Below, piece after piece: positions 42,654 to 48,482 of a stretch of DNA of 64,000 bases. Each line of letters starts with the position of its first letter. The first letter of the stretch is position 1. Source of the stretch: Actinomycetota bacterium (lineage in GTDB: Bacteria > Actinomycetota > Thermoleophilia > RBG-16-64-13); NCBI GenBank assembly GCA_016278725.1, contig JADQBG010000007.1:1-64000 (forward strand). Direction: 5' to 3'. A program made the position numbers and the translations under genes. Under the pieces are notes generated by a model that was not told the DNA's origin, searched no databases, and was given only the letters and a program-made list of their open reading frames with translations.

Positions 42654-45131
42654 CTACTTGACCTCTTCGCCGACCAGGATCTCGGACCGGTCGAGCACCT
42701 CGCTGATAACGAGCTGGTCGCCGTCACGAGTCATGACCACGGTGCTGCCCGACGGGATCTCTCCCGAGAGCACCTTGTCGGCGATCATGTCCTCTACGTA
42801 GCGCTGGATCGCGCGGCGCAAAGGCCGAGCGCCCATCGCCGGGTCGTAGCCCACCTCGACCAGGAACTCCTTGGCTTCCTCGGTGAGCTCCACATTGAGA
42901 CCGCGATCCTTGAGCTGCTCGCGGATGCGGGCCATCATCAGTTCGACGATGCTCATGATCTGATCCCGGGTCAACTTGTGGAAGACGATGACCTCGTCGA
43001 TGCGGTTGAGGAATTCCGGCCGGAACACCTTCTTGAGCTCCCCCATGACCCGGCTCTTCATCTCGCCGTAGTCCATGCCGCCCTCCAGGATGGGCTCGCC
43101 GAAGCCGAGCACCTGCCCCTTGGAGATGGTGGCCGCGCCAATGTTCGAGGTCATGATCAGAATGGTGTTGCGGAAGTCGACGGTGCGTCCCTGGGCGTCC
43201 GTCAGCCGTCCGTCCTCCAGAATCTGGAGAAGGATGTTGAAGACGTCGGGGTGGGCCTTCTCGATCTCATCGAGGAGCACCACCGAATAGGGCCGGCGGC
43301 GCACCGCTTCGGTCAGTTGACCGCCCTCCTCGTAACCCACGTATCCGGGGGGCGAACCCACCAGCCGGCTCACCGCGTGCTTCTCCATGTACTCGGACAT
43401 GTCGATCTGCAGCAACGCGTCCTGGTCGCCGAAGAGAAACTCCGCGAGGGTGCGCGCCAACTCGGTCTTGCCGACACCCGAGGGACCCAGGAAGACGAAC
43501 GAGCCGCCGGGCCGCTTGGGGTCCTTGAGCCCCGCCCGCGAGCGGCGGATCGCTTTGGAGACCGCGTTCAGCGCCTCGTCCTGGCCAACCACCCGCTTGT
43601 GCAGCTCTTCCTCCATGCGGAGCAGTTTCTGCGTCTCGGCTTCGGTCAGCTTCACCACGGGGATGCCGGTCCACATGGCAACGATCTCGGCGATCTCGTC
43701 CTCGCCGATGGTGGCGCGGACGCCTTCCTCGTCGTTGCTCTTCCAGCGCTCTTCCATCTCTTTCTTCTCGTTGATCAGACGGCGCTCCCGGTCGCGCAGG
43801 TTGGCCGCCTTCTCGAACTCCTGCGCCTCGATGGCCGCTTCCTTCTCCTTGCGCACGGTCTGGATGCGCTCTTCGAGTTCACGGTAGTCGGGCGGTGCGG
43901 TCATGGTCTGAATGCGCTTGCGCGATGCAGCTTCGTCGACCAGGTCGACGGCCTTGTCGGGCAGGAAGCGGTCGCTGATGTACCGGTCGGCCAGGTAGGC
44001 CGCGGCATCGATGGCCTCATCAGAGATGCTGATCCGGTGGTGGGCCTCATAGCGGTCGCGCAGGCCCTTGAGGATCTCGCTGGTCTCCTCCACCGAAGGC
44101 TCCCGCACCATTATCTGCTGGAAGCGCCGCTCCAGGGCCGCGTCGCGCGCCAGATACTTGCGGTACTCGTCCACGGTGGTCGCGCCGATGGTCTGGATCT
44201 CGCCGCGCGCCAGCGCGGGCTTGAGAATCGAGGCCGCGTCGATGGCGCCCTCGGCCGCGCCGGCTCCCACCAGGTTGTGGATCTCGTCGATGAAGAGGAT
44301 GATGTCGCCGCGCTCGCTGATCTCCTTCATCACCTTCTTCAGGCGCTCCTCGAACTCGCCGCGGTACTTGGAACCCGCGACCAGGGCGCCCAGGTCGAGC
44401 GTGAAGATCTGCTTGTCCTTGAGCAGTTCGGGCACGTCGTGCTCGGCGATGCGCTTGGCCAGGCCTTCGACCACGGCGGTCTTGCCCACTCCGGGCTCGC
44501 CGATGAGCACCGGATTGTTCTTGGTGCGCCGCGAGAGGATCTGCATGACCCGCTCGATCTCGGTCTGCCGGCCAACGACCGGGTCCAGCTTGTCTTCTTC
44601 GGCATACTTGGTCAGGTTACGGCCGAACTGCTCCAGCACTTTGGAGCCCTTCTTGCCGCCGGGCGCAGCGCCTTCGGTCTTCTGACCCCGGCGCGTGGGG
44701 CCGGAGAGAACGCGCATGACCTCCTGCCGGATACGGTCGGCATCGGCGTCCAGGTCGTTGAGAATGCGGGCGGCGACGCCCTCGCTCTCCCGAACCAGCC
44801 CGAGCAGAATGTGCTCGGTGCCGATGTAGTTGTGGCCGAGCGATAGCGCTTCGCGCAGGGCCAGTTCCAGCACCTTCTTGGCCCGCGGGGTGAAGGGGAT
44901 CTGCCCTTGCGCCTCGTGCTCGCCCTCCCCCACGATCCGCATGATCTCTCCGCGGACGTCTTCCAGGGAGACTTCCAGCCCGCTGAGTACGCGTGCGGCG
45001 ACCCCGTCGCCCTCGCGCAAGAGGCCGAGCAGCAGGTGCTCGGTGCCAATATAGTTGTGTTTCAGCTCCCGCGCCTCTTCCTGGGCGAGAACCACCACCT
45101 GTCGCGCGCGCTCGGTAAAGCGTTCAAACAT
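42654..45131 (-). CDS. clpC: AAA+ unfoldase ClpC
   Basis: HSP100 unfoldase that feeds substrates to ClpP. Domains: two Clp-N repeats ([39 protein letters not shown] and a second copy), AAA1 with [15 protein letters not shown], a UVR-containing middle domain ([18 protein letters not shown]), AAA2 with [19 protein letters not shown], and a C-terminal D2-small domain. The 825 residues match ClpC. In Bacillus, McsB feeds phospho-arginine-tagged proteins to ClpC; here McsB looks inactive (see mcsB), so substrate selection may differ. It lies 4 bp downstream of mcsB. Confidence 0.96.
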
Positions 45132-45135
45132 CGTC

Positions 45136-46164
45136 CTACTCTCTCCTGTCTAGCGTCCGGGCGGACCCGAAGGCCCGCCGCAGCAATCGTGCGCGAACTT
45201 CGTCAAAACGGGGATCATCAACTTCGGCGTCGGGTTCCCCGAGTTCTTCCATGGCGATATGGCCGGGCTGCACTCGCCGCATGAGGGCGAAGGCGGAGGC
45301 GGGAGTGAATCCGTCGAGTGCGATCACTCCCATATCGACCCCGCTCTGCACCGCGGATATCAGGCCGAGAGCTTCTTCGACCGTCATCGACCAGGCCTGC
45401 TGGGCCACACCCAGGGAGCGCCCGACGTAATCCCGCACTTGCACCGGATTTTCTTCGAGCAGCCGCTTTCTCATGGCGTGCTCCTGCTCGGCCAACTGGC
45501 GGGAAACCGCATCTACCTTCTCGGCGATGCGCAGTTCGGCTCTACCCAAGCCCCCCTTGTTGGAAACTTGGAAGAGCCCGCCGGCCCCGCCCCAGACCGG
45601 GCTGAGCGTGATGCCCTTCCCGATCAATTTCACCGCCACCGAACCCAACTGGCCGGTGACCATCAAAGCCGGAAGATGAACCAGCGAGTGGGCGCGCAGC
45701 CCGGTTCCGGCATCCTCGGCCCTCGCGGTGAGATAACCCCAGCGCTCGTCGTAAGCGAACCCCAGTCCGGACTCCAGAACATCGTCCAACTCATCAAGCG
45801 TACTCCACAGACCGGACAGAACTTCGCCGGCGCGGGACACCATCAGCCGGATGTGGTCGCGGCCATTCACCTCCAACGAGGCAATGCCCCCGCGGTAAAG
45901 GCCGAAGCCCTTCCAGGGGTCGGTCTCGCGGGAGAAGGCGGGCGTCATCAGCCCGCGCTCGACCAAATAGGCCCGCAGTCCCGGGGACAGCGAATCCATG
46001 GGCGTTAGCTCCCAGTCACCGGGATCGGCACAGGTCTCGAGCACCCTCTCGACCCGCTCGAGGAACTCGGTCAGCTGAGCCTCTTCGGCGGCGTGGGGAA
46101 ACGGCAGCACCGAGTCATTGCGCGACATCTCGAGTCCGCCGGCAAATACCAGGTCCGCGCTCAA
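45136..46164 (-). CDS. mcsB: McsB-like protein-arginine kinase homologue, probably catalytically inactive
   Basis: Clearly an ATP:guanido phosphotransferase-fold Mcs[45 protein letters not shown] and [10 protein letters not shown] align with Bacillus McsB. Three active-site motifs are changed. The SSRIRLARN stretch is AGGLEMSRN (about residues 8-15), so the first two arginines are lost. The NEEDHIR motif with the catalytic Glu reads NGRDHIR (100-106). The Cys of LTSCPTN is Arg (LTARAED, 145-151). The allosteric C-terminal DIRRAALIR region is only partly kept (EVRARLLRR). The N-terminus is about 20 residues shorter. The frame is intact, so it is selected for and probably a pseudokinase. The TTG start overlaps mcsA by 4 bp. 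Confidence 0.85.
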
Positions 46165-46733
46165 TTCTCCTCCGCAACCAATTCGGCCAACTCCGCGATG
46201 CGGTCACGCACCCCGGCGGCCTCTTCGTATCTCTCGTCGTCGACCAGTTCCTTGAGCATGTGCTCCAGGCGCACCACCTCGCGGCGTTGCTCCAGGGCCG
46301 GCCGGCCGTGGGAGGGCTGCTTGCCCACATGTCCCGGGGCTTCGCTTCCCCCGAGCGCCGCTTCGATATGGCGGCTGAACGCCTGATAACAGGCGGGGCA
46401 GCCCAGCATCCCCCTCTCCTCGACATCTTTGAGCGTGGAACCGCACACCGCGCACATCGACTTTCGGGACGAGGCCCGCGAATCAAACAGAGGCGCCGGA
46501 CGGCTGAGCAGCGATCCGAGCATGCCGGCAAGGGCGGTCGGGACCGCAAAAAAGATATCGGTATCCGCGCCGCCGCCCGCAGCTTCCTCGGCGCAACTCT
46601 GGCAGAGATGCGCGTGGACGAATTCCCCGTCCTCGATACGGATGATGTGGATGGTGCCGGGCTCAGCGCCGCAGGAATCACATTCCTGGGCGTGGTCGTG
46701 ACCGAGTTCCCATTCGGATCCGTCGGCGAACAT
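46161..46733 (-). CDS. mcsA: McsA-like zinc-finger/UVR protein
   Basis: A 190-residue partner of McsB. It has two zinc-finger pairs (CDSCG ... CQSC near 18-50 and CAVCG ... CPAC near 92-115) and a C-terminal UVR motif (LKELVDDERYEEAAGVRDRI). In Bacillus McsA activates McsB and helps CtsR control; no ctsR is present upstream. A strong GGGAGGTG site precedes the ATG. The first gene of the block running to sigH. Confidence 0.9.
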   Translation of the reverse strand: MFADGSEWELGHDHAQECDSCGAEPGTIHIIRIEDGEFVHAHLCQSCAEEAAGGGADTDIFFAVPTALAGMLGSLLSRPAPLFDSRASSRKSMCAVCGSTLKDVEERGMLGCPACYQAFSRHIEAALGGSEAPGHVGKQPSHGRPALEQRREVVRLEHMLKELVDDERYEEAAGVRDRIAELAELVAEEN

Positions 46734-46991: not shown

Positions 46992-48482
46992 CTAGGCCCC
47001 GGGCGGGAACGCCTCCGGGCGCAGCTGAGGAAACAGCACGGCGTCGCGGATGGAATCCACGCCCAAGAAGAGCATCACCAGGCGGTCGATGCCGATTCCC
47101 AGTCCGCCGGCCGGGGGCATCCCGTACTCGAGCGCGCGCAGGAAGTCCTCGTCCACCACGTGGGCTTCTTCGTCGCCCATCGCCTTGTTGGCGGCCTGCT
47201 GCTCGAAGCGCCGGCGCTGATCCAGGGGGTCGTTGAGCTCGCTGAAGGCATTGCCGATCTCCCAACCGGCGATCACCGGTTGGAAGCGCTCCACCAGCGA
47301 GTCGTCGTCGCGGTGCTCCTTGGCCAAGGGGCTGAGCTCGACCGGGTGGTCGATCACGAAGACGGGGCGATCGAAGGTGGACCACACCAGTTCTTTGAGC
47401 GCTTTGTCCACCAGAAGCCCGAAGGTCTCCCGACGTTCGACATCGACGCCCTTGGCGCGGAGGGCTTCACGCGCTGCCTCGGGGTCTTCACGCATTTCGC
47501 GCAGCCCGAGGCCCAAGTTCTCCCGGAGCAGTGAGTCCACGGTCAGGCGCGGCCAGGGAGGCGCCAGATCCCACTCGCGTTCCCGGGCGGTGATCACCTG
47601 CGTGCCCAGCACCTCGGCGGCCAGAGCGGCCACCATCTGCTCCACGAGTTCCATGACCTCGTGGTAATCCACGTAGGCCCAGTAGAGCTCCATCATGGTG
47701 AATTCGGGATTGTGAATCGAGGAGATGCCCTCGTTGCGGAAGTTCTTGCCGATCTCGAACACCCGGTCGAAGCCGCCCACCAGCAAACGCTTGAGGTACA
47801 GCTCGGGCGCGATCCGCAGATAGAGGTCGGCGTCCAGGGCGTTGTGGTGAGTCTGGAAGGGTCGGGCGAGCGCACCCCCGGGCAATTGCTGGAGAATCGG
47901 GGTCTCGACCTCCATGAATCCGCGGTCCTCCAGATAGCGGCGCATGGCGGAGATCAGGCGGCTTCGCAGGATGAATGACCGCGCCACTTCCGGGTTGGCG
48001 ATCAGGTCGGCGTAACGCTGGCGGTAGCGCGTCTCCACGTCCTGGATTCCGTGCCACTTCTCGCCGGGAGCGCGCAGGGCCTTGCTGAGGAGCGCCCAGG
48101 AGTCCGCCATCAGGGAGAGTTCGCCCCGGCGCGTGCGGAAGATGCGGCCCTCGCAGCCGATGATGTCTCCCAGATCGAGCGAGGTCAAGCCGTCGAACCG
48201 CTCCTGCCCCAACCGGTTGACGTTGGCGAAGACCTGAAGATCCGCCTGCCCGTCGCGCAGGGTGAGGAAGGCGGCCTTGCCGTGCTCGCGCCGGGACATC
48301 ACCCGCCCGGTTATGCGGAAACGATCCTCGGTCTCCTGACCGTCGGCCAGCCAGTCATAACGGCCAACGATCTGGTCCAGGGGCTGACGGGCTTGGTAGC
48401 GGCGGGCGTAGGGCTCGACGCCCGCCGCGCGCAGGGCCTGCACCTTCTCCGCCGGTCCCATACGGGCCGCGGATTCCTCCAC
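46992..48482 (-). CDS. lysS: lysyl-tRNA synthetase, class II
   Basis: Class II synthetase with an N-terminal OB-fold (ITGRVMSRREHGKAAFLTL, then DGQADLQVFANV) and catalytic motifs 1 (RRYLEDRGFMEVETPILQ), 2 (IGKNFRNEGISSIHNPEFTM) and 3 (GLGIGIDRLVMLFLG). The 496 residues are normal. The GTG start shares a base with the greA stop. It is the last gene before the mcsA block on the same strand; the 258-bp gap after it holds the mcsA promoter. Confidence 0.96.
   Translation of the reverse strand: MEESAARMGPAEKVQALRAAGVEPYARRYQARQPLDQIVGRYDWLADGQETEDRFRITGRVMSRREHGKAAFLTLRDGQADLQVFANVNRLGQERFDGLTSLDLGDIIGCEGRIFRTRRGELSLMADSWALLSKALRAPGEKWHGIQDVETRYRQRYADLIANPEVARSFILRSRLISAMRRYLEDRGFMEVETPILQQLPGGALARPFQTHHNALDADLYLRIAPELYLKRLLVGGFDRVFEIGKNFRNEGISSIHNPEFTMMELYWAYVDYHEVMELVEQMVAALAAEVLGTQVITAREREWDLAPPWPRLTVDSLLRENLGLGLREMREDPEAAREALRAKGVDVERRETFGLLVDKALKELVWSTFDRPVFVIDHPVELSPLAKEHRDDDSLVERFQPVIAGWEIGNAFSELNDPLDQRRRFEQQAANKAMGDEEAHVVDEDFLRALEYGMPPAGGLGIGIDRLVMLFLGVDSIRDAVLFPQLRPEAFPPGA

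Follow-up and report, generated by a model that had tools for sequence, protein, structure and literature searches.

The mcsB gene in the stretch of DNA analyzed here (64,000 nucleotides, hereafter the window) encodes a true orthologue of the protein arginine kinase McsB. In the explanation that we favor with moderate confidence, this orthologue has turned into a pseudokinase that is kept by selection, most likely as a dimeric, McsA-bound scaffold or adaptor for the ClpC unfoldase that operates without phospho-arginine. McsB has been studied as the writer of phospho-arginine, a degradation tag read by ClpC; whether McsB has a kinase-free role as well, that of a physical adaptor, is debated, and mutations do not easily tell the two apart. 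In the lineages described below, nature appears to have separated the kinase from the rest of the protein several times, and the loci examined adjoin mcsA and clpC. Such degenerate McsBs may serve as ready-made separation-of-function proteins for the action of McsB on ClpC, and arginine phosphorylation should not be assumed for a genome just because it carries mcsB.

An McsB orthologue and its degenerate reaction center

The window protein contains a match to the Pfam domain PF00217 (E 2.4e-30) and is matched over residues 3-331 by the NCBIfam protein arginine kinase model for McsB, NF002194 (E 3.5e-58), while its best PDB match is the McsB structure 6fh1 (E 5e-36). The NCBIfam and PDB searches agree with the proposal of the earlier note that the protein is homologous to McsB along its whole length. 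The equivalog cut-offs of NCBIfam are missed for both NF002194 (197 vs. 385 bits) and NF053707 (159 vs. 500 bits); however, these cut-offs were set for the active enzyme, thus the shortfall weakens the claim of a kinase, not the claim of descent. The AF2 model, built from a 48-row alignment (mean pLDDT 94.3, pTM 0.90), aligns with McsB 6fh3 across both domains (Z 38.1, rmsd 2.7, 329 residues) and with 8gqd (Z 28.1, rmsd 2.9, 314 residues), and the Foldseek match to McsB structures has an E-value of 2e-28. Full-length similarity in sequence and fold over both domains, together with the gene order shared with mcsA and clpC, identifies the protein as an McsB orthologue. The gene starts with a TTG codon that overlaps the mcsA stop codon, the exact start being uncertain; the mcsA and clpC genes are whole and adjoin mcsB, in line with the intact reading frame and operon of the earlier note (Table 1).

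Table 1. Features of the mcsB locus, with positions in the window; Gst, Geobacillus numbering; Sa, Staphylococcus aureus numbering
Feature	Coordinates	Strand	Remarks
lysS	46992..48482	minus	Upstream neighbor in the conserved gene order
mcsA	46161..46733	minus	Two intact CxxC...CxxC zinc fingers, UVR domain
mcsB (predicted pseudokinase gene)	45136..46164	minus	342 aa plus stop; AF2 model and PDB fold match
AGGLEMSRN, residues 8-16	46117..46143	minus	Degenerate SSRIRLARN; R28G and R30E, R33-N34 kept
NGRDHIR, residues 100-106	45847..45867	minus	Degenerate NEEDHIR; E120G, E121R
YDERWGY, residues 138-144	45733..45753	minus	Counterpart of the McsA-contact loop Y147-Y153 (8gqd alignment); kept
LTARAED, residues 145-151	45712..45732	minus	Degenerate LTSCPTN; C167R
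SPVWGGAGG, residues 188-196	45577..45603	minus	Degenerate RGTYGEGSEALGN lid loop; R207S, E212 lost
R249 (Gst R272, Sa R262)	45418..45420	minus	One side of the salt bridge (8gqd alignment, PMC12467219); invariant
E264 (Gst E287, Sa E277)	45373..45375	minus	Opposite side of the salt bridge (8gqd alignment, PMC12467219); invariant
clpC unfoldase	42654..45131	minus	YRGEFEER stretch and both N-terminal-domain GTEH motifs kept

The catalytic pocket was judged from alignment rather than from geometry, with the roles of residues taken from homologues, using the numbering of the Geobacillus literature, which equals the 6fh1 chain index minus 4. According to the 6fh1 alignment, the window protein carries R28G, R30E, E120G, E121R, C167R, and R207S, lacks E212 in a shortened lid loop, and keeps R33, D122, H123, R125, and R176. 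The three motifs quoted in the earlier note (AGGLEMSRN, NGRDHIR, and LTARAED in place of SSRIRLARN, NEEDHIR, and LTSCPTN, respectively) are exact, and the losses of R207 and E212 come in addition to them and strengthen the case. Thus, the protein lacks the ATP-site arginines R28, R30, and R207 and the catalytic residues E121, C167, and E212; among the residues required of a kinase it has R33, R125, and R176. In Bacillus subtilis, kinase activity in vitro is lost with any one of the substitutions R29K, R31K, R34K, R125K, R176K, and R207K, which correspond to Geobacillus positions 28, 30, 33, 125, 176, and 207, and the mcsB allele C167S encodes a kinase-inactive protein (PMC7235348). Since R28, R30, R207, and C167 are lost jointly, along with E121 and E212, the sequence makes a working arginine kinase very unlikely. 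The window protein is therefore an McsB by descent and fold that, by its defining residues, would not be a protein-arginine kinase.

In the S. aureus McsA-McsB structure, as summarized in PMC12467219, zinc finger 2 of McsA touches the McsB loop Y147-Y153, positioning Cys157, and the McsB subunits are joined by a salt bridge between R262 and E277. In the 8gqd alignment, Cys157 corresponds to R148 of the window protein, which retains the preceding contact loop. The counterparts of the salt-bridge residues, R249 and E264, do not vary among McsBs, whether intact or degenerate; at a second pair of this interface, F261-R271, the window protein has G248 and W258. The McsA proteins of the family of the source organism (hereafter the host family) retain all eight zinc-finger cysteines, as do those of the other degenerate lineages. 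McsA shares its distribution with McsB, being present in the same 17 host-family genomes; among 43 relatives of the same class without McsB, it was not found, except for one short match to the UVR region (residues 135-186, E 9e-5). We propose that the two-domain fold, the dimer contact, and the McsA docking have survived in this McsB, while the binding of ATP phosphates and the phosphoryl transfer to arginine would have been lost.

Distribution, selection, and the phospho-arginine system

The comparison within the host family covers 18 genomes and 18 McsB copies, one genome having two. McsB occurs in 17 of these 18 genomes, with a genome of 78% completeness as the exception; a search of 43 genomes from the rest of the class gave no McsB, and a PF00217 profile search across 299 class genomes recovered the same 17 only. 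The mcsAB pair has either been kept within the class by the host family alone or been acquired. R28, R30, C167, R207, and E212 are lost in all 18 copies and E121 in 15 of them, whereas R33 is invariant, and R125 and R176 are mostly kept; the P-x-W and AGG residues of the lid loop are specific to this family. Recurrence of the pattern in 18 copies from 17 genomes rules out a sequencing error or a one-off mutation. In the McsB tree, which was built without the catalytic columns, the host-family copies form one clade (support 100/100), whose stem has a length of 1.38 changes per site. A contig scan returned a single relative, the congeneric MAG Actinomycetes bacterium isolate LH_M23. The host genome (99.65% complete) encodes no PF00217 protein other than the window McsB, which rules out a second kinase copy; thus, the absence of a second mcsB, claimed in the earlier note for the window, extends to the whole genome, and the check for another ATP:guanido phosphotransferase that it had suggested found none. 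One genome (G008), in an assembly with 7% contamination, carries two diverged mcsA-mcsB-clpC loci (L075 and L076), the second of which resembles that of genome G007 and probably lies on foreign contigs.

Wherever the contig permits, host-family genomes have these genes in the order lysS-mcsA-mcsB-clpC, so that mcsB is genetically linked to clpC, as would be expected of a ClpC adaptor. In G007, a member of the host family, about 5 kb with several open reading frames separates lysS and mcsA (L074:3400-8780); the order is compact elsewhere. A scan for promoters and terminators around the operon gave nothing exceeding chance, and the N-terminal motifs of ClpC, in a comparison confined to genomes with mcsAB, are uninformative about McsB.

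The dN/dS ratio, estimated by the Nei-Gojobori method in congeneric or closely related pairs, is 0.06-0.18 for mcsB within the host family. For the same pairs, the values are similar in mcsA (0.10-0.23), lysS (0.06-0.13), and radA (0.05-0.11) and lower in the very slow clpC (0.03-0.05). Among the 49 alignment columns that are at least 90% conserved in intact actinobacterial McsBs, the host family keeps 33 and loses 13, the latter including R28, R30, E121, R207, G208, E212, and N219. The lost sites are nearly invariant in intact McsBs and variable in the host family; for instance, column 121, which is invariant in the intact proteins, reaches the 99th percentile of variability (entropy). This pattern suggests that the constraint has been lifted from the reaction center, not from the protein as a whole. 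The loss is fixed in the lineage, purifying selection acts on the rest of the protein, and the genome has no paralogue, a combination expected of a pseudokinase under selection. The idea that equivalent Glu and Cys residues are placed elsewhere in the pocket, which the earlier note had named as an objection, finds no support, since the host family has no conserved replacement Cys and the E121 column is among its most variable ones.

Other components of the phospho-arginine system were searched for in the same genomes. CtsR is absent from all 18 host-family genomes; however, none of the 50 other McsB genomes of the phylum has it either, including those with intact McsB, and its absence is therefore uninformative as a mark of the pseudokinase state. 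Matches to the low-molecular-weight (LMW) phosphatase family, to which YwlE belongs, were detected in three of the 18 host-family genomes, and the three best hits that were read have an ArsC-like loop (GNSARSQ or similar), as typed by sequence alone. By this loop typing, no YwlE-type phosphatase was found in any of the 18 genomes. An LMW phosphatase of non-ArsC type accompanies 18 of 25 intact, 4 of 23 other degenerate, and none of 18 host-family McsBs, a link between the pseudokinase state and the absence of a YwlE-type phosphatase that the counts suggest but that is not significant on five independent pairs. Counter to this trend, G316 and G342 (L147 and L148) combine a degenerate McsB with a YwlE-type LMW phosphatase (GNTCRS loop). 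In one group with intact McsB (L128, L153-L158), a normal LMW-phosphatase-like protein is accompanied by unusual ones whose loop is of the GNIMRSV type. Residue R337 of the phospho-arginine pocket is replaced by F320 in the window protein and by Ile or Val in its relatives; it was rejected as a diagnostic position, since intact actinobacterial McsBs also lack it.

Degenerate McsBs across the phylum

A PF00217 protein was found in 55 of 396 sampled genomes of the phylum, the genomes compared being largely multi-contig assemblies. Among the 50 aligned McsBs from outside the host family, about 25 have an intact site, and several groups have lost at least two of R28, R30, E121, R207, and E212. These groups include L087-L093 (R28, R30, and R207 lost; E121D, C167N), L097-L098 (E121H/Q, E212R), L100-L102 (R30S, R176E, R207Q), and L058-L062 (R207N, E212G), with further degenerate examples in L099 and L103, L085 and L094, and L104. 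In some of them the losses are milder than in the host family, and their inactivity, as judged from these residues, is less certain. Changes between the intact and degenerate states occurred at least six times on the tree, the exact number of losses being uncertain because of long branches in the set, and a single shared origin of all degenerate McsBs is rejected by the AU test (p-AU 0.0007). In eight pairs from the other degenerate lineages, dN/dS is 0.05-0.07 in six and 0.18 and 0.23 in two shallow ones; these mcsB genes also lie between mcsA and clpC where the contig permits. Thus, the pseudokinase state of McsB appears to be recurrent and selected rather than a stage of decay. In several otherwise intact McsBs (L053, L064, L051, and L066) C167 is replaced by Ser, although C167S is the kinase-inactive allele of B. 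subtilis.

Possible roles and comparison with known systems

A kinase-independent role predicts just such a protein, one that has lost the kinase but remains under selection in its operon. The earlier note had suggested a pseudokinase that is retained for a structural task in the ClpC branch, which is supported by the loss of the site, by the conservation of the fold, operon, McsA, and salt bridge, and by purifying selection. We infer further that this task is specifically that of an adaptor, with ClpC as its partner, and that the ClpC branch may work without phospho-arginine: the McsA-McsB dimer would present substrates to, or activate, the ClpC encoded next to it, with no phospho-arginine being written. 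In B. subtilis, the mcsB C167S allele stabilizes MgsR less than the deletion does, which its authors attributed to a kinase-independent adaptor function, possibly together with ClpX (PMC7235348). Furthermore, phosphorylated CtsR is not degraded without McsB, and the activation of ClpC by McsB is described as not understood (PMC5506225, PMC12583610). Several observations count against the adaptor role: the MgsR evidence points to ClpX rather than ClpC; ClpC stimulation and specific substrate degradation by B. subtilis McsB were reported to be kinase-dependent (PMC5506225); and R125 and R176, mostly kept in the host family, would not be required of a wholly relaxed pocket. Our search, which covered the open-licence literature, found no report of natural McsB pseudokinases.

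Other roles can be envisaged for the same set of observations. The McsB remnant might act as a reader, binding phospho-arginine written by another kinase and steering the tagged proteins to ClpC. Phospho-arginine has been reported from a species without a known McsB, Mycolicibacterium smegmatis (PMC9604228), the host family has an invariant Asp and an invariant Arg in its C-terminal DxxRA motif (D321, R324), and both GTEH motifs are kept in the ClpC N-terminal domain, though the latter say little about McsB; nevertheless, we regard this role as unlikely, given the replaced allosteric-pocket residue R337 (albeit one missing from intact actinobacterial McsBs too) and the failure to find a YwlE-type phosphatase in host-family genomes. 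A McsA-McsB dimer that keeps ClpC or McsA at rest, or in a redox-sensing state, until released under stress would fit the conserved zinc-finger cysteines of McsA and the B. subtilis system, in which ClpC keeps McsB inactive at rest and the thiol sensor McsA loses its contact with McsB on oxidation (PMC5506225). Such a brake is rather unlikely, because the redox switch is known to act downstream on CtsR, which these genomes lack. The pocket may also have been remodeled to take another ligand or catalyze another reaction, and McsA-McsB would then be a new type of sensor or enzyme on the ClpC protease. Some other pseudokinases have new chemistry, and the old lid and pocket segments contain family-specific, invariant or nearly invariant residues (A95, E98, G101, P189-x-W191, and G195-G196), in addition to the mostly kept R125 and R176. 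However, positions 121 and 167, in the center of the site, are variable and have no conserved replacement, and the Trp, Pro, and Gly replacements would be more in keeping with a pocket that is filled or stiffened than with catalysis, so that a new activity seems quite improbable.

The remaining explanations concern the catalytic site itself. A divergent yet active protein-arginine kinase that uses other residues could draw on E121 in three host-family copies, on R125 and R176 in most of them, and on the occurrence of Ser in several otherwise intact McsBs, which makes Cys167 alone not decisive; still, we give it very little credence, as R28, R30, R207, and E212 are lost in all copies and a single R-to-K substitution at any of the three arginines kills the B. 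subtilis enzyme. The loss of the catalytic site would also be expected of a gene in decay, a possibility of negligible weight that is ruled out by the dN/dS of 0.06-0.18 and is at odds with frames open in 18 copies and the conserved operon and partner.

The scaffold or adaptor for ClpC that we favor can be compared with several known systems. With the McsBs of Bacillus, Geobacillus, and Staphylococcus (PF00217; 6fh1-6fh3, 6tv6, and 8gqd), the window protein shares the phosphotransferase and dimerization domains, the mcsA-mcsB-clpC order, the McsA-contact loop, the R272-E287 salt bridge, and R33-N34. In contrast to these McsBs, to which the window protein is 28-30% identical in structural alignments, the host family has the site losses and a shortened lid loop and lacks CtsR and a YwlE-type phosphatase. 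MecA and YpbH are ClpC adaptors, and the likeness lies in the phosphorylation-independent adaptor or activator role proposed here for the host-family McsB; the folds of MecA and YpbH are unrelated to that of McsB. Bacterial Ser/Thr pseudokinases are likewise kinase relatives kept without catalytic residues, but they belong to a different fold and superfamily, and their review mentions McsB in its reference list only (PMC12599244). The B. subtilis McsB C167S protein, which is kinase-inactive and partially functional in MgsR turnover (PMC7235348), resembles the window protein in these respects; however, C167S is a single laboratory mutation, whereas the host family has lost several site residues in nature and is under selection.
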